Below are positions 1,212 to 42,511 of a DNA stretch of 64,000 nucleotides, in pieces. The translations under genes and the position numbers were made by a program. Below the pieces are notes generated by a model. The model saw only the letters and a program-made list of their open reading frames with translations. It had not been told where the DNA came from and did no database searches. The DNA is taken from the IMG/VR virus record IMGVR_UViG_3300044701_000569, positions 293,560-357,559 of that record; one strand, given 5' to 3'. This stretch comes from a virus. Each line of letters starts with the position of its first letter. Position 1 is the stretch's first letter.

Positions 1212-1904
1212 TCACTCCTTTCGACCACCAAACAACTGTAAGAGGTTAATGAACAAGTTAATAAAGTCCATGTATAGAGTTAATGCACCTCGAACTTCTG
1301 CAACACTATTTGCATCCACTGAGAGTTCTTCGCGGATCTTTTGCGTGTCATATGCTGTCAGTCCTAGAAAGATAATAATAGCCAGTGCTGAAATTACCAT
1401 CTGCATAACTGTACTGCCAATAAAAATGTTAACAATACTAGCAATGATAATTGCAATCAATCCCACAAACATAAACTTGCCCATGCTGTCTAGACTCTGT
1501 TTAGTAAAGTAGCCATAACCACTCATAACACCAAACAGAATAGCTGCGCCCATAAAGGCACTAACAATTGAGCCCATAGTAAACACAGCAAAGATTGTAG
1601 CAAAGCTCAATCCCATTAGTGCTGCAAATCCGTGTAAGCATAATTGTGCTACACCCTTGCTAGGATTATTACCTAGGATCATAGCAACCCCAAAGATTGC
1701 CACCAGCGGTGAAAAGATTACAATCCATTTCATCACACCTGTGAAAAAGAATGCCAACAACTCTGGGCTAGTGCCTACAAAGTAACTAACAATCATTGAC
1801 ACTAGAACAGCTAGGCTCATATGTCCGTAGACACGACCCATTGCTGAATTAATTTCATCAGCAGAACGATAGGACATTCCACCTGTATAACTTGTTCCAA
1901 ACAT
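1212..1904 (-). CDS. Bax inhibitor-1/YccA family membrane protein
   Basis: A polytopic protein with about seven hydrophobic segments, ending in LTAYDTQKIREEL followed by LYMDFINLFINLLQLFGGR. That C-terminus is characteristic of the BI-1/YccA (UPF0005) family. In bacteria YccA modulates the FtsH protease and other members conduct calcium. The start is taken at 1904 (MFGTSYTGGM) because AAGGAG lies 7 bases upstream; the longer frame would overlap clpP. It directly follows clpP, which fits a role in membrane protein quality control (inference). Confidence 0.9.
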   Translation of the reverse strand: MFGTSYTGGMSYRSADEINSAMGRVYGHMSLAVLVSMIVSYFVGTSPELLAFFFTGVMKWIVIFSPLVAIFGVAMILGNNPSKGVAQLCLHGFAALMGLSFATIFAVFTMGSIVSAFMGAAILFGVMSGYGYFTKQSLDSMGKFMFVGLIAIIIASIVNIFIGSTVMQMVISALAIIIFLGLTAYDTQKIREELSVDANSVAEVRGALTLYMDFINLFINLLQLFGGRKE

Positions 1905-6339: not shown

Positions 6340-6960
6340 TTATTTTATATACAAAGAAAGTTGTGTTTGAGCAGTTAATCTTGGAGTGTCTTGCTCTACA
6401 TTTATATCATGTAAAGAACCAGCTGTATTCATAAAGATAACTCCGTGTCCTTTTGTTCCAGGACATGAGTATATAAGTTTGTTGGGGTCTTTATGATCCC
6501 AAAATTTTGTGCCTTCTTTATTTTCTGTTAGATTTAAAATAGCTGCAAAAACAGTTCGTCGATTATCTAGATGCTTACTCATTTTGTGACCGTTTTGATC
6601 ACAGACAATATTTGTAAAAGACGTTACTCCGCCAATATTCCCTGGAAGCATCCAGGGCCAATTATTAGTAAAACTCTTTTGTAAATCTCCGCTGAATCCA
6701 TCTATTAAATTTACAAAAAGAGAGTGAATGGATTTTGTATATTCTTCAACCCACTCACTCTCTTTTTTTAGGAATGAACGATGTTGATGATCATTCCAAT
6801 TTTTTCTAGTAGTATTTGCTGAACCAAAACTGTCAGACTCTTTAAAATCGTTTGGTATCTCTGTATCCAAAAGATTAAAGTTCCAAATCCAGTGCTTATA
6901 ATAACTAAGCACTGGACCTTGGTTTAGATTTACTAGTTCAGGAACAGATAGTTGTATCAC
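6340..6960 (-). CDS. Putative 2OG-Fe(II) oxygenase-like protein
   Basis: A likely double-stranded beta-helix: His130-x-Asp132 in MSKHLDNRR, distal His184 in AGSLHDINV and Arg194 ten residues on, the spacing of the Fe(II) and 2-oxoglutarate ligands. The substrate is unknown; phage members may act on nucleic acids or proteins. It overlaps the end of the rIIB-like gene by 4 bases. Confidence 0.6.
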   Translation of the reverse strand: MIQLSVPELVNLNQGPVLSYYKHWIWNFNLLDTEIPNDFKESDSFGSANTTRKNWNDHQHRSFLKKESEWVEEYTKSIHSLFVNLIDGFSGDLQKSFTNNWPWMLPGNIGGVTSFTNIVCDQNGHKMSKHLDNRRTVFAAILNLTENKEGTKFWDHKDPNKLIYSCPGTKGHGVIFMNTAGSLHDINVEQDTPRLTAQTQLSLYIK

Positions 6961-26154: not shown

Positions 26155-26698
26155 TAATATCAATCACTGAATCACTGAGTACTACTTCATAGTGATTTAG
26201 CTCTACTTCTACCAGTTCCATATCTTCATGATGCTTCATGCTGTCAATAGTAACTACACCGTCGTTGGGTGCTATCATAAAAGGGCTTTGTCCTCGTAAC
26301 GTAACTACGTTAGTCCACGGATGTTGTATCTTAATTTTATCTGCTTGCCTCATGGGCCAACTGTTGGGACCTATGTCTCTCATTAGTCTAGAGAACGGTA
26401 AAAAATACTGTACATAATTTGCTACTTCTGCTCCGCCGTAGGGCGTACTAAGAGTCACAGCACCCAGCACTTGTTTAGGCATATGATTGGCTAGATGTAG
26501 AGAGTATATACCGCCTAAACTATGTGCTATAAAAAATATATCTTTTGTATTCATTAACGACAGTTTCATTGCAGCTAGATTATTTTCAAATCCGTCTCTA
26601 CTGTCGTAGTCAATGTCTATGCCCCTGCCTAGCTTGCTTCTAATATAATTAAAACTTTCGCTAGTAGCACTAGCACCATGTATGTAAACTAGGTTCAT
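26111..26698 (-). CDS. Alpha/beta hydrolase (lipase/esterase-like)
   Basis: Begins MNLVYIHGASATSESFNYI with the HG oxyanion motif; nucleophile Ser60 in AHSLGG, probable Asp146 (PNDGVV) and His169 (NHYEVV) complete a triad. No signal peptide. It shares a 4-base overlap with the cyclase gene and is the last gene of the curli-like operon, so it may modify lipids or esters at the cell envelope. Confidence 0.82.
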   Translation of the reverse strand: MNLVYIHGASATSESFNYIRSKLGRGIDIDYDSRDGFENNLAAMKLSLMNTKDIFFIAHSLGGIYSLHLANHMPKQVLGAVTLSTPYGGAEVANYVQYFLPFSRLMRDIGPNSWPMRQADKIKIQHPWTNVVTLRGQSPFMIAPNDGVVTIDSMKHHEDMELVEVELNHYEVVLSDSVIDIIKTRLEACVTTLKQ

Positions 26699-28740
26699 TT
26701 CTCAGTTGCAATCCATTCGCCTTGCCAATCGTCACCTAGGTTCTGCTGTTTCATGAACTGGCAACGTTCAAACCAAATTTCGTAATACTTGTCCATTTGT
26801 CCATTAAATGTTCCCTTCATCATAGCACACATTTCAGCAGCTTCGTCAAACTTTTTCTGTTTGTACCAAGCATGCATGGCATTATGGGTATCACGATCCA
26901 TAATATATTCACGTTCGTTGCCCTTTATTCTCAGCACTGTGTATATGTTGTCAGCAACAGTTTTTCCTTTGGGCTGTAGGTTGTCTAGGTATAGATAGAA
27001 AAAGTCATCTTTGGTTCTGTTGTAGGTTTCAGCACCAATGATAGCCAACACACCATAGGCTTTGCAACGTGCTTCTAGTCGTGCAGCAGTACTAACCATG
27101 TCACCTAGTATGTCATAGCCGTGGCGTTCAGTTGATCCCATCTCACCTATAAATCCAGTGCCTGTGTTACAACCCCATCCCATAGCAGCAGGAGGTAAGC
27201 CCTGTGCTTCCATGTCTGCTGTATAACGATCCACAGCATCCAACATTTCTAGTCCTACCTTAACAATGGTGCGAGCATGATTAGGATCATCAATTGGAGC
27301 ACCATGCATGTGCATGCTAGCGTCACCTACATACTTAATAACCATACCTTTGTTGTTCATGATAGGTATAGTAATAGCATCCATATAGCCATTCATATAC
27401 TTGGCTAAGCCACCTACATCATCTCCATAGTGTTCACCAATTGGTGTGAAGCCACGTAGGTCTGAGAACATAACTGATACATCTTTACGCACACCTCGCT
27501 TGATAAGTTCTGGATCTTTCTGTAGCATCTCTACTACTTCCTTAGAGCAGTAGCCTGCAAACTGTTTCTTGATTGCCTGCTTCTGTAGGAATTCACTTAC
27601 AAACTTAATGCCATAAGTATGCAGAGCCACGAGTACAAAAGTAATCGTGCTTGCCGTCGCGTCTCCCAGGAAGGCTCCGTTATGGAAATAGTAATAAGAA
27701 GCAGCCACAGGGGTAATGATCCCCACAACAGTTGTAACGAGTCCGACATAAGTCCACCTTGATAGTAAAATTATTAGGGCACCTACTACAAGTATAAACA
27801 TGTATTCTGCGCTCTGTGCCCAGTCAGGACGCTGAATATTGCTGCCATTAAACATTGTTCCCAGCAGTGCTGCCTGCACATCTTGGGGATACACTGAACC
27901 CTTTGCTGTGGGTACAGGATTAGATAAGCCTGCGGCACTTACACCTACTATAACCACAGCACCATTAAAATCTTTGGGCAAATCAGCTGCACTAACACTC
28001 TTGTTAGTCTGACTCCAATCAACCCATACTCTACCATCTTGTTCTGTAGAGATAATACCAAATTTAGGTATTCTCAATTTTTCTACACCGTACTCGTTCA
28101 GTTTAATTTGAAAATTAGGATCACCTGCAATTACTCGTAGAGCTTCTAATGAAAGGCTGGGATACAGTACACCATCCACTGCTACCACAAGAGGTAATCT
28201 TCTGGTAACTCCGTCTATCTCAGTCATGGTGCTGACTATACCTACGCCCGCTGCATTCTTTTCCAGTGAAGGAACGTTTGCAATTATACCTTCTGCTGTG
28301 GGTATCTTGTGCAGGTACTCACTGCCCACAATAGCAGCGCCAGGATTCTTAGGTTGATTCTTTGTCTTATCGCTGGGTTGATTAGGTAGTATTACTGGTA
28401 GCTGTGCCAGTGTATTGGCTAAGAAAGCATCTCCGTTGAATCTGTCTTTCTCTGGCATCATCACGTTGAATATTACTAGTCCTGCGTTTCTAGCATACAG
28501 GTTGTGTATTAGTTCTGCATACACAGTTCTAGGAAAAGGCCACTGTCCCCATTTATCAAGTGATGCTTCATCTATGTTTACTGTATAGATATTGTTCTCT
28601 GTAGGTTCCTTAGAAGTAATAAGCCTGTCAAAGTAGTTTAACTTAACAGCTTCTAAGAATACAGGCTGCGACATAAACGTTGCCAGCAGTACGAATAGGG
28701 TTACAAATGCCCATAGTGGGTTGACAAATAGTTTCTTCAT
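26695..28740 (-). CDS. CHASE2-domain adenylate cyclase
   Basis: An N-terminal membrane anchor (residues about 9-30) is followed by an extracytoplasmic CHASE2 sensor (FDRLITSKEP to the VIVGVSAAGLSNP region), about three membrane helices (roughly 310-380) and a class III cyclase domain. Metal-binding Asp is in MFSDLRGFT and YVGDASM. The Lys of VIKYVGD and the Asp of GYDILGD suit ATP over GTP; SxxAARLE stands where NxxAARLE is usual. A CHASE2 cyclase beside a FecR gene is a known bacterial neighbourhood. The start codon sits inside a 9-bp inverted repeat. This is a remarkable gene for a phage. Confidence 0.9.
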   Translation of the reverse strand: MKKLFVNPLWAFVTLFVLLATFMSQPVFLEAVKLNYFDRLITSKEPTENNIYTVNIDEASLDKWGQWPFPRTVYAELIHNLYARNAGLVIFNVMMPEKDRFNGDAFLANTLAQLPVILPNQPSDKTKNQPKNPGAAIVGSEYLHKIPTAEGIIANVPSLEKNAAGVGIVSTMTEIDGVTRRLPLVVAVDGVLYPSLSLEALRVIAGDPNFQIKLNEYGVEKLRIPKFGIISTEQDGRVWVDWSQTNKSVSAADLPKDFNGAVVIVGVSAAGLSNPVPTAKGSVYPQDVQAALLGTMFNGSNIQRPDWAQSAEYMFILVVGALIILLSRWTYVGLVTTVVGIITPVAASYYYFHNGAFLGDATASTITFVLVALHTYGIKFVSEFLQKQAIKKQFAGYCSKEVVEMLQKDPELIKRGVRKDVSVMFSDLRGFTPIGEHYGDDVGGLAKYMNGYMDAITIPIMNNKGMVIKYVGDASMHMHGAPIDDPNHARTIVKVGLEMLDAVDRYTADMEAQGLPPAAMGWGCNTGTGFIGEMGSTERHGYDILGDMVSTAARLEARCKAYGVLAIIGAETYNRTKDDFFYLYLDNLQPKGKTVADNIYTVLRIKGNEREYIMDRDTHNAMHAWYKQKKFDEAAEMCAMMKGTFNGQMDKYYEIWFERCQFMKQQNLGDDWQGEWIATEK

Positions 28741-32268: not shown

Positions 32269-33165
32269 TTATTTTTTTTCTTCTGCCTTTTCTTCTGCCT
32301 TGGTTTCTGCCTTGTTTTGCGCTGCAGGTTGTGTGACTGCTGCATCACCTGGTTGAGGCCAAGGTGCTGCAACTGGTTTAGAAAATGCCCAGTGTCCTTT
32401 ACGAGCACCATCATTGATTAGCTCAATCACTGCCCCGTGAACTGCTAACTGTGTTGCTCTGTTAATGCTTTCATTTGCAGCTACACCTGATTCTAGCTCA
32501 AATGCTTTCTGTCCCAGTTCATAGAATTTGATTACACCCACTCTATCCTGAACTGAAGCTACAGTTTTCTTAACCATTACAGATGAAAGAACTTCACCGC
32601 TGGACACACTAACTGCTCGTAGACTGATAACTACTTCATCCTGTCTGTATTCTGTTGAAGCACCAATGCCCAACAGTCTAGCACCATTACCGCCACTTAC
32701 TGTGTTTGAGTCATAGCCCACAATACCGCCTTCCAGCAGTATTCCTGCGAACACCATTGGAGGTAAAGGCTGTGCTTTATCTCCTTGATAGAGTTCTCTC
32801 ATCTGACGTATAAGTTGACGCTCTTTGATAATGTTGTCTAGTCCCCCACGCTCTACTACTTTGAACCATTGTCCGCCGCCTATGGTTTGTAGGCTTTGAA
32901 TTAGATAGTTGTCTGCGCCCTGTGTTACAGCAGAACTTAGACTGGCTATGTTCTGTACTGATTTTCTTTGTCCTGTTAGGTCTCTAAAGTTGTAGACAGC
33001 CACAGTCAATGCTCCCTGTGCAGGAGGTGCTAGTTGTGGTTCTTTCTTTAGCTCAGGAACAGTTACAACAGGATCATCCCAAGTTCTTAATTTAGCTGTG
33101 TTTATACTGGCACAACCTGAAAGCACTGTTGCTGCTAAAAGTGTTGAAATTAATTTTAGTTTCAT
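32269..33165 (-). CDS. csgG: Curli secretion lipoprotein CsgG
   Basis: Lipobox LSGC with Cys18 after a signal peptide, then CsgG features: LTVAVYNFRDLTGQRK, FKVVERGGLDNIIKERQLI, and GGIVGYDSNTVSGGNGARLL (the transmembrane hairpin region), plus VSSGEVLSSVMVKKTV. CsgG forms the nonameric outer-membrane curli export pore. An Ala/Lys/Glu-rich tail (about 20 aa) is extra. The start at 33165 overlaps the csgF stop in an ATGA. No csgE was seen. Confidence 0.93.
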   Translation of the reverse strand: MKLKLISTLLAATVLSGCASINTAKLRTWDDPVVTVPELKKEPQLAPPAQGALTVAVYNFRDLTGQRKSVQNIASLSSAVTQGADNYLIQSLQTIGGGQWFKVVERGGLDNIIKERQLIRQMRELYQGDKAQPLPPMVFAGILLEGGIVGYDSNTVSGGNGARLLGIGASTEYRQDEVVISLRAVSVSSGEVLSSVMVKKTVASVQDRVGVIKFYELGQKAFELESGVAANESINRATQLAVHGAVIELINDGARKGHWAFSKPVAAPWPQPGDAAVTQPAAQNKAETKAEEKAEEKK

Positions 33166-33617
33166 GGTGCGATCCATCCAAAGTCCCCGATCGGAACTGT
33201 CATTGTTGTAACATTGCCCTGTGCATCTCTAATTGTAATTTCAATTAGATTGCCTGTCTTTGTATATGTTATTGTTCCACCATTAAACGCAAAGGTGCCC
33301 ATTACCTGTGAGCCAGTACCTTCAAATAGCTTTTCAGTAATCTGTCTTGCTAGTTCATTATACACACGACTTTCTAGGTTAGCTATAAATCTAGCCATAG
33401 TTGTGTTTTTAGCATCTAGTTCTTCTTTTAATTGTTCTGCTTTCTTTTCAGCTGTTATAGCTAGTCTTCTACTTAATTCTTGATTGTAAACAGACAGTAC
33501 GTGACTGCTGTAGCCTATGCCTGAAAAGGAAGGATTGTTAAATTGAAATACTATTTCACTTGCATTTGCAGATGATGCAAGAATGGCAAATGTTGCCGCG
33601 GTTATTATTTTCTTCAT
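33162..33617 (-). CDS. csgF: Curli assembly protein CsgF
   Basis: Signal peptide 1-19 and then the CsgF hallmark VFQFNNPSFSGIGYSSHVL, which inserts into the CsgG pore, followed by a helical middle and a beta C-terminus (IEITIRDAQGNVTTM). The start at 33617 is preceded by GGAGGG. It normally anchors the nucleating subunit at the cell surface. Confidence 0.9.
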   Translation of the reverse strand: MKKIITAATFAILASSANASEIVFQFNNPSFSGIGYSSHVLSVYNQELSRRLAITAEKKAEQLKEELDAKNTTMARFIANLESRVYNELARQITEKLFEGTGSQVMGTFAFNGGTITYTKTGNLIEITIRDAQGNVTTMTVPIGDFGWIAP

Positions 33618-35356: not shown

Positions 35357-35364
35357 TATTTATA
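35357..35364 (-). promoter_or_regulatory. T4-type late promoter box
   Basis: Minus-strand TATAAATA, identical to the T4 late consensus, 24 bases before the ATG at 35333. Confidence 0.7.
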
Positions 35365-36055
35365 CTATTTTAGGGAACAGCATGTCTGTACAAAACAGAT
35401 CCACTTCTGCTTCGTTAAGCCCTAGACTTTTCATTACATTAGGTGTATGGGGGTTTTGACGCTGATTGTCACAGTACCAGTTCTGTGCCTTAACAGTATC
35501 TTCTAAGGCTGCTGAATCAGCATAGTCACTGATCTCGTCAAAATAGGCTCGTAGGTTATTAAGTGCTATGTTTATAATTGCTACAGCTTCTTCTTCTGTG
35601 TTGACATTTCCAGCAGCCAACATCTTATCTGTAAAAATATTCTTAGCCCACTGTGGCAGTTCTCTCTGCTTCTTAGGTATAAAATCTTCTACACTATCCT
35701 TGTAGCCTAGAATCATAGGATGATTCGCGCCACCACTCGAAGGACTAAAATCGTGAAACGCACCTGTTATCTTATTCTTACCAGCAATAACATCAAAGCC
35801 GTAGATAGGTCCGCCGTTGGTAAGGCTAGGAAACACACAGACGTGCATCATCCAAAGACCTTTGCTTTCTCTAGCATCTACAACATCAATATGAGCCCTA
35901 CGCACATGTAGATTAGCCCATACACGATTAACCCAGCCCCCGTCGCTCTTATTAAATTGCGACATTCCCGGTTCGTTAATTTCAACTGCGTGTTCTTCAA
36001 ATATCTTGATAATCTCGTCTTTGCAATCAATTAGCTTTTCCCAAATTACACTCAC
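35360..36055 (-). CDS. Ferredoxin-dependent bilin reductase (PcyX/PebS-like)
   Basis: The bilin reductase pattern is clear: HVRRAHIDVVDA, MMHVCVFPSL, PIYGFDVIAG and HDFSP, with His71 and Asp88 spaced as PcyA His88 and Asp105, and a C-terminal WYCDNQRQNPHTPNVM segment. These enzymes reduce biliverdin with ferredoxin. PcyX enzymes of ocean viruses make phycoerythrobilin; the exact product cannot be told here. It is coupled (ATGA) to the heme oxygenase gene. Confidence 0.85.
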   Translation of the reverse strand: MSVIWEKLIDCKDEIIKIFEEHAVEINEPGMSQFNKSDGGWVNRVWANLHVRRAHIDVVDARESKGLWMMHVCVFPSLTNGGPIYGFDVIAGKNKITGAFHDFSPSSGGANHPMILGYKDSVEDFIPKKQRELPQWAKNIFTDKMLAAGNVNTEEEAVAIINIALNNLRAYFDEISDYADSAALEDTVKAQNWYCDNQRQNPHTPNVMKSLGLNEAEVDLFCTDMLFPKIV

Positions 36056-36585
36056 TCTTTAATCTCCGACATCTGTTGGAATAACTTAGTTGCAAAGTCA
36101 AAACAAATCTTAGCTTCTTCAGCCATGCTATCGTTTAGTCTAGCACGTATTCTTTCTTTCAGTTCTTCAACTGGTTCATTGAATTGATACATCTTTCCTG
36201 AACCCGGTACTCGCTTTGCTAACATCTGTCCACCACTCAAGTCGCCCATATGTCGAACATAAATGTGTGCCATTAACTTGTCCGGATCATCCTGTATCTT
36301 AACTAGATGATCCATGTATTCTTTTACTACGGGCAGCAACGGTGGTTGCTTATTAGTATCTGTCCATAGTTCTTGATAATCTTCGTGTATTGCAGGAGCA
36401 CGTCTTACATCAAGTATACCGTGTACCATTGCAAATACTTCTAGAAGATTATACTGAGGGTGCTGATTAAAAAGGAACGTTGCATAACGTTCCTTTGATA
36501 GGTTACTAGAAAACATCTCACGGACAAATTCTTGCCGTTCAGCAGCTTTATGATGTTCCCAAGTTAGTTCTTTTAAGTTGCTCAT
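36052..36585 (-). CDS. ho: Heme oxygenase
   Basis: Proximal His region TWEHHKAAE (His11/His12) and the distal-helix GDLSGGQ (114-120) are intact; 177 aa is a short phage-type length. It cleaves heme to biliverdin, CO and iron and supplies the bilin reductase encoded next. There is no SD; the ATG is 5 bases after a TATATA-type box. Confidence 0.93.
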   Translation of the reverse strand: MSNLKELTWEHHKAAERQEFVREMFSSNLSKERYATFLFNQHPQYNLLEVFAMVHGILDVRRAPAIHEDYQELWTDTNKQPPLLPVVKEYMDHLVKIQDDPDKLMAHIYVRHMGDLSGGQMLAKRVPGSGKMYQFNEPVEELKERIRARLNDSMAEEAKICFDFATKLFQQMSEIKE

Positions 36586-36599
36586 ATTATTATATAGCG

Positions 36600-36911
36600 T
36601 TACTCTTGTTCTACTTTCACTTGAAGTGGAAATCCGTGATTCCTACTTGCAGTAATTGTTTCAGCACTCTTCTGTTCTGCTATTTCAAAAAAGTATGTAC
36701 CCACTACAGCTTTACCTTCTGTATGTATGGTCATTGTAATGTGTTCAGCACTTTTCTCAGAATGCTTGTAAATCTGTTTTAGAATTTCTACTACCCAATT
36801 CATTGGGGTAATTTCGTCATTGAACATAATAACATTAAACTTTTTAGGTTCAACTGTCTGCTTCTTAATCTTTTCGTCAATTTTAATATCGATATCTGTT
36901 GCTATACTCAT
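36600..36911 (-). CDS. clpS: Clp protease adaptor ClpS
   Basis: The N-degron binding fold is visible: FNVIMFNDEITPMNWVVEIL, HITMTIHTEGKAVVGTYFFE and a final LQVKVEQE. At 103 aa it has normal length. ClpS brings N-end-rule substrates to ClpA-ClpP; the phage encodes ClpP at 1915-2502. It stands in the same operon as Hsp20. Confidence 0.92.
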   Translation of the reverse strand: MSIATDIDIKIDEKIKKQTVEPKKFNVIMFNDEITPMNWVVEILKQIYKHSEKSAEHITMTIHTEGKAVVGTYFFEIAEQKSAETITASRNHGFPLQVKVEQE

Positions 36912-36934
36912 TTTGTTCTCCTGGTAAGGTGGGG

Positions 36935-36955
36935 GGATTTCTCCCCCCTAGACTA
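36935..36955 (-). other. G6/C6 hairpin between hsp20 and clpS
   Basis: A six-GC stem (GGGGGG, loop AGAAAT, CCCCCC) lies in the 46-base gap. No T-run follows, so it is more likely an RNA processing or stabilising hairpin than a terminator. The ribosome site for clpS follows. Confidence 0.4.
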
Positions 36956-36957
36956 GA

Positions 36958-37422
36958 TTACTCGCTGTCTATTGTTAATGCTTCAGCTTTTGAAGGTGCT
37001 GTAATAGCAATCTTCTTAGGCTGTAGCTCTTCTGGTACACGGCGCTTGAGATGAATGTTTAACATTCCTAGCTCAAGTGTTGCACCATCCACTTCAACGT
37101 GGTCGGCGAGAGTGAACTCTCTACGGAAATTGCGTCCGCCGATTCCCTTGTGTAGATATGTCACACTGTCATCTCCTTTTGGAGAAATCCCTTCAATACG
37201 AAGAACATTCTTGTCCTTTGTAATTTCCAAGTTATCCATAGCAAAGCCAGCCACGGCAACGCTGATAATATACTCGTCGTCGTTTAGCTGTACAATATTA
37301 TATGGAGGGTATCCACCGCTTGAATTAGCTGAGTACTGTCGTTCAATTTCGTTAAACAGTCTATCAAAACCAATTGTGGCTCTGTGGAATGAAGGTAAGT
37401 CTAGAGTTGTAAGTCTTGTCAT
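36958..37422 (-). CDS. Small heat-shock protein Hsp20
   Basis: The alpha-crystallin domain is evident: DDEYIISVAVAGFAMDNLEI, GGRNFRREFTLADHVEV and GMLNIHLKRRVPEELQPKKI (with the IxI-like IAI). 154 aa resembles IbpA. It would hold misfolded proteins during infection. Strong ribosome site AAAGGAG. Confidence 0.93.
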   Translation of the reverse strand: MTRLTTLDLPSFHRATIGFDRLFNEIERQYSANSSGGYPPYNIVQLNDDEYIISVAVAGFAMDNLEITKDKNVLRIEGISPKGDDSVTYLHKGIGGRNFRREFTLADHVEVDGATLELGMLNIHLKRRVPEELQPKKIAITAPSKAEALTIDSE

Positions 37423-37477
37423 GTTTTTCTCCTTTAATAAGCAAGAACTTTATAATGAGCCCTAACGGCGCTCATTT

Positions 37478-38587
37478 TTATTTACCAATTGTAGATGACT
37501 CAAAAACACTGTTATGAGTTTGAGTACAGCGTACAAAGGTAGTGCATTTGCTAAGTTGCTTCAGCGTCTTAGCGCCTGCGTATGTACAGGTACTGCGCAA
37601 TCCGCCCAGTATATCCTGCACAGTATTTAGTACCGCTCCTTTGTAGGGTACTAAAACAGTACGGCCTTCTGAAGACCTGTAGTCCTTCAGTCCGCCAAAA
37701 TGTTTGTTGTTGGCACTTTCTGAACTCATACCGTAAAACTGTACAAATTTCTTTTCTTGAATTTTACGTTTACGAGCTGTTAGATGGTCTCCAACTTCGT
37801 ATTCTAATTCATTAGTTTCGTAAAACTTAGAGATAACTTCGCCCCCGCCTTCGTCGTGTCCTGCCAGCATACCACCAAGCATTACAAAGTCGGCACCGGC
37901 AGCAAATGCTTTAGCAACATCACCAGGACAAGTGCATCCACCATCAGCAATAATATGACCGCCCAGACCGTGAGCTGCGTCGGCACATTCAATAACTGCA
38001 CTAAGTTGTGGGTACCCAACGCCAGTCTGGATACGAGTAGTACAGACACTACCAGGACCAATACCAACTTTAACAATATCTGCACCTCGCAGTATTAACT
38101 CCTGTGTCATGTCACCAGTAACAACGTTGCCGGCAATAATTGTATGTAGTGGAAATTCTTTACGAATCTTTGAAACATAGTCAGCAAAGTGTTCGCTATA
38201 ACCGTTAGCAATGTCAATACAGATAAACTTAATATCAGTAAAGTGGGCGCATAAGTCAACTAACTTATCAAAGTCGGCAGCACCTGTTCCGGTAGAAATA
38301 GCAAGATGATTACCGCTAAATGGATAACCCTTACTCCAATCATTATAGTCGTAGTTTTTAACTAAACATGTAAACATTTTATGCTTTGCTAATGCATCAG
38401 CTATAGCAAATGTACCAACACCATCCATGTTAGCGGCCATAATAGGTATGCCAGTCCATGTTTGTTCACTGTGCTTGAACGTATATGTGCGCTCAAGGGT
38501 TACTTCTTTACGACTAGATAGAGTTGACCGCTTAGGACGAATTAATACGTCCTTGTAATCAAGTTTAACGTCTTGATCGATTCTCAT
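37478..38587 (-). CDS. guaC: GMP reductase (IMPDH/GMPR family)
   Basis: Catalytic Cys182 in [11 protein letters not shown], phosphate-binding [10 protein letters not shown] and [16 protein letters not shown], and the YGMSSESA segment all fit GMP reductase. Length 369 aa is near E. coli GuaC (347). It turns GMP into IMP with NADPH and would help convert guanine to adenine nucleotides from degraded host nucleic acid. Its ATG touches the bS21 stop. Confidence 0.93.
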
Positions 38588-38841
38588 TACTTCCTCTTAT
38601 TTGAGTATGGATTGGGGAAATTATCTTCATTTCTTGCCTGCTTTTTAAGCCATCTTGATCTAGCAGCAGCCTTGGCCTTCTTACGTCTTATACTGGGCTT
38701 TTCGTAAAATTCTTTTTCTCTGAGTTCTTGAAGAATTCCAGAATCTTGTACCTTCTTCTTGAATCTTCTAATGGCTCCATTAATGTCTCCATTACGGACT
38801 TCAACTACAAGTCCTCTAAACTCATCATTCACCTTCTTCAC
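38587..38841 (-). CDS. rpsU: Ribosomal protein bS21-like
   Basis: The bS21 signature [20 protein letters not shown] then [19 protein letters not shown] is complete. The start is GTG with a perfect AGGAGG 5 bases before it. bS21 helps 30S initiation. Phage copies are known in SAR11 myophages. Overlaps the upstream gene by 17 bases. Confidence 0.93.
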
Positions 38842-41620: not shown

Positions 41621-41647
41621 AAAAAGAAAGGCGCCCTAGAGCGCCTT
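41621..41647 (-). terminator. Rho-independent terminator of the tmRNA gene
   Basis: AAGGCGC/GCGCCTT stem with loop TCTAGG (41628-41647), followed by TTCTTTTT on the minus strand. Confidence 0.9.
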
Positions 41648-41694
41648 CCTCACTGTTCTGTTGCCCGGTAAGTGAACCGCGAACCTGCTGTTTC

Positions 41695-41730
41695 TTAGGC
41701 AGCTAGCGCAAAGTTGTTGTCATTGACAGC
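41695..41730 (-). other. tmRNA tag-peptide reading frame
   Basis: Eleven codons encode AVNDNNFALAA, followed by TAA. The ALAA end is the usual ClpXP degron. The resume codon is taken as GCU at 41730; one codon earlier (GUU) is possible. Confidence 0.9.
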
Positions 41731-41856
41731 AACGTTTACGAATAGTTCAGGAGTAAAGGTTTTTGTGCCGTTTACTTGATTTTGCTTCTTTTACGGAGAT
41801 CGCCTACCGTGTTGCCGTCTCTACTATCTCACCCAATCGATCCTAGTTCAGCCCCA

Positions 41857-41931
41857 TCATAAAAGGACAATTAGCATGACAGTTACAATGACTGTAAATC
41901 CTACTAAAAATCTTACTAGATCGTCTTCCAT
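41857..41931 (-). CDS. 24-aa membrane micro-ORF inside the tmRNA intervening segment
   Basis: ATG at 41931 with an AAGGA ribosome site 5 bases upstream and TGA at 41857-41859 gives 24 codons. A charged start (MEDDLVRF) leads into an uninterrupted run of Leu, Val, Ile, Thr, Phe and Met, enough for one membrane helix. It fills almost the whole intervening segment between the two mature tmRNA pieces. The ribosome site lies in a 10-bp inverted repeat (CATAAAAGGA/TCCTTTTATG). The frame could be chance, but site, length and composition together suggest a real peptide. Confidence 0.55.
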   Translation of the reverse strand: MEDDLVRFLVGFTVIVTVMLIVLL

Positions 41932-41946
41932 AACTATCCTTTTATG
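41857..41946 (-). repeat. Inverted repeat closing the tmRNA intervening segment
   Basis: CATAAAAGGA at the 5' end of the intervening segment and TCCTTTTATG at its 3' end are perfectly complementary over 10 bases. Pairing would stack next to the acceptor stem, hold both pieces together before processing and hide the micro-ORF ribosome site. Confidence 0.7.
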
Positions 41947-42012
41947 GTGGAGCTGGCGGGAGTTGCACCCGCGTCTTGAATGCCTTCGCTTTGAAGGGAT
42001 TACAACAATTTC

Positions 42013-42216
42013 TTAAACAGGCTGAATGTTACTTGCCTGTTGTCCTTTTGGACCCATTGTGATTTCAAATCTTACACTCTGTCCTTCTTGTAGGCTTTTG
42101 TAGCCACTAGAAGAAATTTGTGAAAAATGAGCAAACACATCTGCGCCGCCATTGTCTGGAGTAATGAAACCAAAACCTTTAGCTTCGTTAAACCATTTTA
42201 CTTTACCTGTTACCAT
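42013..42216 (-). CDS. cspA: Cold-shock protein CspA family
   Basis: 67 aa with [17 protein letters not shown] (RNP1) and DVFAHFSQI (RNP2), then [20 protein letters not shown]. It is a single-stranded RNA/DNA chaperone. The acceptor piece of the tmRNA begins within about 30 bases of its stop, so both probably share one transcript from 42332-42359. Confidence 0.95.
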
Positions 42217-42379: not shown

Positions 42380-42511
42380 TTAATCATATGGCTTTAAAAA
42401 ATCATCATTTTTTGAATCTTCTTCAAAATTGCTCCAATCATAGGTTGCTAACTTATAAATCCAAAAAGCATGTAATCCTATTACAAAAGTCAAAAGAAAT
42501 AGATTTGTCAT
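42380..42511 (-). CDS. Small membrane protein (43 aa)
   Basis: ATG overlaps the stop of the upstream gene (ATGA at 42508-42511). One hydrophobic N-terminal helix (LFLLTFVIGLHAFWIYKL) and an acidic tail (NFEEDSKNDDF). It fills the region before the cspA promoter. Confidence 0.62.
   Translation of the reverse strand: MTNLFLLTFVIGLHAFWIYKLATYDWSNFEEDSKNDDFLKPYD

Follow-up and report, generated by a model that had tools for sequence, protein, structure and literature searches.

An open reading frame in the spacer of a permuted phage tmRNA

Ordinary two-piece tmRNAs are processed by RNase P and tRNA 3′ enzymes (PMC3985003), and such two-piece RNAs have been reported in phages (PMC9004378); the locus considered here raises the question of whether the intervening segment that is expected to be cut out of such an RNA can itself be a gene. 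The stretch of DNA that we analyzed (the window, 64,000 nucleotides) is the end of an IMG/VR virus record of 357,559 bp (positions 293,560 to 357,559) and carries a permuted tmRNA on its minus strand, immediately following a cold-shock gene (PF00313); this tmRNA scores 127.4 bits against the Rfam covariance model RF04321 (gathering cutoff, 47) and 108 bits against the Rfam beta_tmRNA model. The acceptor piece lies 5′ of the coding piece, the acceptor pairing comprises 7 bp, and the tag ends in ALAA. The features of the locus, from 5′ to 3′, are as follows.

42380..42511, minus strand: free-standing 43-aa membrane protein with homologues inside the tmRNA spacers of loci L213, L214, L225, and L247
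42332..42359, minus strand: sigma-70-like promoter TTGACA-16-AATAAT, matching at 11 of 12 positions and preceding both the cold-shock gene and the tmRNA (promoter-like sites are no more numerous in the region than expected by chance)
42013..42216, minus strand: cold-shock protein (PF00313), with its stop codon ∼6 nt 5′ of the tmRNA acceptor piece
42037-41604, minus strand: circularly permuted tmRNA (ARAGORN; tag VAVNDNNFALAA)
41945..42007, minus strand: tmRNA acceptor piece, i.e., T-arm, 3′ acceptor strand, and CCA (RF04321; CCACCA end at 41945)
41856..41944, minus strand: intervening spacer of 89 nt, expected to be excised, between CCACCA and GGGGCTG (sequence, RF04321)
41931..41944, minus strand: 5′ strand of the helix extending the acceptor stem, containing the Shine-Dalgarno site (folding, −41 kcal/mol, z of −5.8)
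41937..41941, minus strand: Shine-Dalgarno (SD) site AAGGA, 5 nt 5′ of the ATG (sequence; accessibility computed across alleles)
41857..41931, minus strand: ORF of a 24-aa putative membrane micropeptide, MEDDLVRFLVGFTVIVTVMLIVLL followed by a stop (translation, homologues, selection)
41856..41872, minus strand: 3′ strand of the extending helix, including the stop TGA at 41859-41857 (folding)
41695..41855, minus strand: coding piece of the tmRNA, bounded by the predicted RNase P cut (before GGGG) and the stop codon of the tag (RF04321; GGGGCTG start at 41855)
41695..41733, minus strand: proteolysis tag VAVNDNNFALAA followed by a stop (ARAGORN)
41624..41651, minus strand: predicted intrinsic terminator

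The first-pass annotation of this DNA had described an 89-nt tmRNA spacer containing a 24-codon ORF with an AAGGA site at 5 nt, and every one of these details proved exact against ARAGORN, Rfam, and the translation. The ORF was also said to stop one nucleotide short of the mature coding piece, as it does: the stop TGA is followed by a single T and then by the GGGG of that piece. Excision of the spacer in vivo would be expected by analogy with known two-piece tmRNAs (PMC3985003). An Rfam scan of the window returned tmRNA models only, with no group I intron. The phage record encodes no SmpB, and this partner is presumed to be supplied by the host.

Overlap of the Shine-Dalgarno site with the processing stem

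When the stem and the SD site were kept and the interior of the spacer was shuffled, an SD-led ORF of at least 24 codons arose 1.1% of the time, and the hydrophobicity of the window ORF was not reached in any of the 20,000 shuffles; shuffling of the whole spacer gave an SD-led ORF of this length in 0.1%. The AAGGA also forms the 5′ strand of a long helix by which the acceptor stem is prolonged (UAAAAGGAUAGUU / AAUUGUCCUUUUAUGAU; z = −5.8), and helices of this kind are found in ordinary viral permuted tmRNAs that have no spacer ORF. Because the site is a helix strand, and because that helix also occurs in spacers that lack an ORF, the SD alone is weak evidence of translation, and comparison with other phages had to decide.

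Homologues of the window peptide

A phmmer search with the window peptide against the approximately 29,000 small ORFs of the loci then collected matched only L133 (E = 2.8e-7) and L126/L134 (E = 3.5e-5), whose copies (MDDDLTRFVIGFVVIVTVMLLILL and MDDLTRFLIGFAVVVIVVLLVL, respectively) each lie directly upstream of a permuted tmRNA. A profile built from the upstream copies alone, with the window sequence left out, recovered the window ORF among 42,330 small ORFs at E = 3.4e-12, and the same profile matched in-spacer ORFs in L221 (9e-4) and, weakly, in L258 and L175 (E about 0.4). In the reverse direction, a profile of the in-spacer ORFs found the upstream copies, that of L126 at 1.1e-4, with further ones in L165 and L178. 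We define these peptides here as family A. When 2.9 million viral contigs were scanned for this family, it turned up at four loci, in each case directly upstream of an RF04321 tmRNA. L175 has the arrangement of the window, with the tmRNA after the cold-shock gene and a window-type peptide within the spacer, and in L165 the peptide lies between the cold-shock gene and the tmRNA. Family A thus defined appears to occur only beside or inside tmRNAs, upstream in most relatives and within the spacer in the window, the window allele itself being found in a single genome.

The pattern of substitution in this family indicates that the protein is under purifying selection. The window and L133 sequences differ at 22 nucleotides, distributed 9/2/11 over the codon positions, and share 16 of 23 residues. 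When these substitutions were scattered at random, fewer than 1 in 1,000 trials left the two proteins at least as alike. For family A, dN/dS is 0.27, and substitution placement gives a P value of 0.0002 for the window versus L155.

The flanks of some upstream copies have features of their own. In L126, two basic micro-ORFs (MAYKAKKNSVKAAARRAMRRRK and MAKWKAHHPRSIKATARRVLKKRK) precede the family A peptide, which is followed by the tmRNA. In L133, at about 1380-1421 (plus strand), a promoter-like TTGACA-17-TTAAAT ends just 5′ of the ATG of the upstream micropeptide, so that the transcript of that micropeptide may be leaderless.

Spacer exchange between close relatives

Conservation of the ORF in place among relatives was expected, and frame conservation in their spacers had been put forward in the first-pass annotation as the check on coding, but a spacer swap rules this out: in the closest relatives, both the spacer and the ORF within it are different ones. 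The mature tmRNA pieces of L036 and L039, a lineage represented by two assemblies, differ from those of the window at two bases, and their 135-nt spacer contains an ORF unlike that of the window (MVVCSCRDIRDSHFNN...). In L045, whose neighboring proteins are 57 to 76% identical to those of the window and whose tmRNA is nearly identical, the 178-nt spacer has a third kind of content, two overlapping ORFs. Since near-identical phages have swapped their spacers, the proposed spacer comparison, read literally, would have misled. A suggested comparison with SAR11 gave no support either, the spacer of the SAR11 phage Mosig being an ordinary hairpin. The broader proposal, that one precursor could give both a rescue RNA and a membrane peptide, is supported: homologous peptides, purifying selection, and the existence of a class of SD-led spacer ORFs all argue for coding, with the correction that the ORF is not kept in the same spacer.

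The overlapping arrangement seen in L045 recurs in the spacers of L179, L180, L181, L184, and L191, each with two conserved ORFs in different frames, one acidic (..GDSDEEPSS..) and one of membrane type (..WSICAD..). The L036 locus also has a membrane micro-ORF, MKAYQPIVAVLIVIFVLIHVFM, between the cold-shock gene and the tmRNA (6430-6498, plus strand) that the window lacks. We considered the L036 spacer ORF as a bacterioferritin-associated ferredoxin and dropped this assignment: the likeness is limited to a CxC...CGKC motif, and Pfam and PHROG searches gave no match at E up to 1 except one unrelated weak PHROG hit. Matches of this protein in the PDB are at the level of chance, and the window's own genome has no other copy of it.

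Spacer ORFs as a class

Relatives of the window were gathered through a neighboring gene, A1, and their records were then searched with RF04321, so that spacer content was not a criterion. Within this sample, a spacer ORF is present in 6 of 27 tmRNA-bearing relatives (L045, L126, L134, L129, L131, and L133), and the others have ordinary spacers. A second search was deliberately biased, looking for the pattern CCACCA-AAAGGA-ATG in viral contigs; it gave at least 119 stretches, and about 70 of the matches listed are genuine tmRNA spacers. There are at least 58 distinct spacers with an SD, an ATG, and at least 18 codons, and at least 62 distinct ORF-bearing spacers after correction of L178 and addition of L126, L156, and L195. 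The SD and ATG were required by the search pattern for most alleles, and the frequency of the SD is therefore not independent evidence.

The spacer ORFs fall into at least about 20 protein families. Ten of these have at least two members, and dN/dS in them ranges from 0.11 to 0.50. In each family, one to three pairs were tested by substitution placement; their differences at the three codon positions number 106/66/169, and the combined (Fisher) P value is about 4e-23 with the pairs treated as independent. An 86-aa spacer protein in L174 matches PF03692 above the curated cutoff, the spacer ORF of L156 extends to 84 codons, spacer family E has a free-standing homologue in the window (42380-42511), and the spacer of the L135 tmRNA contains a tRNA-Arg(CCG) (1694-1767, minus strand). 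Recurring unrelated ORF families, a Pfam match, a free-standing homologue, and a spacer tRNA together suggest that small genes recurrently use the spacer as a slot, which would hold one of them at a time, usually for a small protein and often for a single membrane helix. The membrane character that had been assigned to the window peptide fits this allele, which is hydrophobic, and fails as a general rule: by a simple hydropathy cut, 8 of 20 representative spacer proteins are membrane-helix-like, and the remaining ∼12 are soluble, cysteine-rich, coiled, or borderline.

The trait appears to belong to a group of uncultured, mostly jumbo phages. The spacer proteins tested had no tblastn match in isolated phages, and no near relative of the window was found among isolated phages. 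A first spacer pattern (CCGCCANCTCCACCATNAAANG...) had no match in viral contigs, and a pattern scan of bacterial genomes gave no genuine tmRNA spacer among the matches listed.

Layout of the spacers and a model for their expression

ORF-bearing spacers open with (U)AAAGGA(G) and close with (U)CUUUUUUGAU, after which GGG follows. Pairing between the two ends of one spacer is stronger than between ends exchanged among spacers (−8.1 versus −5.6 kcal/mol), and ordinary spacers behave likewise. The SD is predicted to be unpaired with a probability of 0.03 in the precursor, rising to 0.09 for the excised spacer and to 0.51 for nascent RNA that still lacks the last 14 nt. Two stop positions recur, a TGA one nucleotide before the cut (the window; families B, E, G, H, and others) and a stop 12 to 13 nt before it (six families); in six further families the ORF runs up to the cut with no stop.

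We consider it very probable, from the homology and selection described above, that the window ORF is a real gene and that the spacer acts as a small-gene slot in these mostly jumbo phages, one that would be translated from the nascent transcript before the tmRNA matures. The gene with its homologues, the purifying selection on it, and the common arrangement of SD, stem, and stop are seen in the sequences, whereas translation, its timing, and the membrane location of the peptide are what we infer; in particular, the SD is predicted to be closed in the precursor and more open in nascent RNA, which points to a nascent transcript that is translated first, its stem closing and its processing taking place afterwards. 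In this model, the SD has a second role as one strand (the 5′ one) of the acceptor-stem extension. As long as the polymerase is still in the spacer, the SD would be partly open, and ribosomes could initiate there and synthesize the peptide cotranscriptionally. With the last 12 to 15 nt of the spacer transcribed, the helix would close over the SD and the acceptor stem would form, after which RNase P and the tRNA 3′ enzymes would excise the spacer to leave a two-piece tmRNA. A single transcript would in this way serve first as mRNA and afterwards as rescue RNA, with translation competing with maturation. The peptide would most likely act in trans in the host membrane.

How far such a slot is tied to ribosome rescue is a separate matter. 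Small genes may sit in the spacer merely because insertions are tolerated there, with no functional tie to rescue, and we put this only slightly short of an even chance. The wholesale swaps of spacer content between near-identical phages fit such neutrality, as does the fact that the families, and even a tRNA, are unrelated to one another, and the upstream flank of the tmRNA likewise gains micro-ORFs (L036 and L126); yet family A has been found nowhere but within or next to tmRNAs, and the inserts retain one fixed layout of SD, stem, and stop. Neutral insertion agrees with our preferred explanation on the gene itself and differs from it only on the link to the tmRNA.

The spacer ORFs that lack a stop make self-tagging possible. 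Translation of the nascent spacer would delay maturation, cleavage by RNase P would turn a stop-less allele into a non-stop mRNA, and the released tmRNA would tag its product, so that the peptide level would report processing and the level of the effector would be coupled to ribosome rescue. Families C, D, and J and alleles L036, L195, and L212 have no stop before the cut and reach a codon boundary exactly there, and only L203 exits in the other open frame; the read-through tails of family C in the tmRNA, which vary in length within the family, consequently look unselected. This frame bias is small (6 versus 1), however, and the window allele and several families stop one nucleotide before the cut, with six stopping 12 to 13 nt before it, and we regard a circuit of this kind as unlikely.

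Less probable still is a leader-type ORF, in which translation of the spacer would control maturation of the tmRNA in cis and the peptide itself would be irrelevant. That the SD and the stop codon are part of the processing helix is in keeping with such control, and in many alleles, including that of the window, a terminating ribosome would cover the RNase P site. The amino acids are nevertheless conserved, the same peptides occur upstream of tmRNAs or as free-standing genes, and the slot is shared by proteins with no relation to one another (soluble, cysteine-rich, and membrane types) and by a tRNA.

Scarcely credible, finally, is a chance ORF in a noncoding processing hairpin, in which the AAGGA would be stem sequence and nothing more and the AT-rich composition of the DNA would account for the hydrophobic frame: the SD does sit in the acceptor-stem extension, the 43 non-ORF viral spacers compared share the same kind of paired ends, and the nearest relatives lack the window ORF, but the homologous peptide outside the spacer (E = 3.4e-12), the selection on amino acids, the shuffles, and at least about 20 spacer ORF families, one with a Pfam domain, argue against it, and the hairpin as sole explanation of the SD was rejected because it leaves the conservation of the protein unexplained.

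Relation to known systems

Dual-function RNAs such as SgrS/SgrT and RNAIII provide a structured RNA and a small protein from one transcript. The window tmRNA would resemble them in this dual use and differ in that its coding part is expected to be physically excised. In the full-text literature searched, no protein gene is described in a tmRNA intervening segment. The permuted tmRNAs of RF04321 in phages Melnitz and Mosig are like that of the window in gene order, T-arm, acceptor pairing, tag, and extended processing stem (PMC9004378, PMC11915505); the window spacer, as we read it, encodes a protein, whereas those of Mosig and the other ordinary viral tmRNAs compared do not. A tmRNA catalogue describes intervening segments, one of which contains a tRNA-Ala, and group I introns with homing endonucleases (PMC11915505). 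These introns and the nested tRNA likewise place a gene within a removed part of the tmRNA, but the window has no group I intron, and the spacer ORFs described here encode tiny proteins of many families, have the SD in the processing stem, and occur in many phages. A 23-aa sORF lies over the tag of the Sinorhizobium split tmRNA, where mutation of its start had no effect on tag translation (PMC10117765); it too is a small ORF on a split tmRNA, but its frame is that of the tag, within the mature coding piece.

If the preferred explanation is correct, the intervening segment of permuted tmRNAs, so far treated as processing waste, would be a reusable gene slot in many phages. About twenty spacer protein families are likely missed by standard annotation because they lie inside a tmRNA gene, and tmRNA spacers point to where further hidden genes may be sought. 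The locus offers a testable case of one transcript that would act as an mRNA before becoming a structured RNA, and would place small membrane proteins of phages beside ribosome rescue.

Elsewhere in the window, genes related to proteostasis and translation lie near the tmRNA, namely, a ClpS adaptor, Hsp20, and ribosomal protein S21 (36600-38841, minus strand; Pfam). A phage bilin pathway of heme oxygenase and then ferredoxin-dependent bilin reductase is encoded at 35360-36585 (minus strand). A CsgG curli secretion pore is encoded at 32269-33177 (minus strand) and a CHASE2-cyclase gene at 26695-28740.
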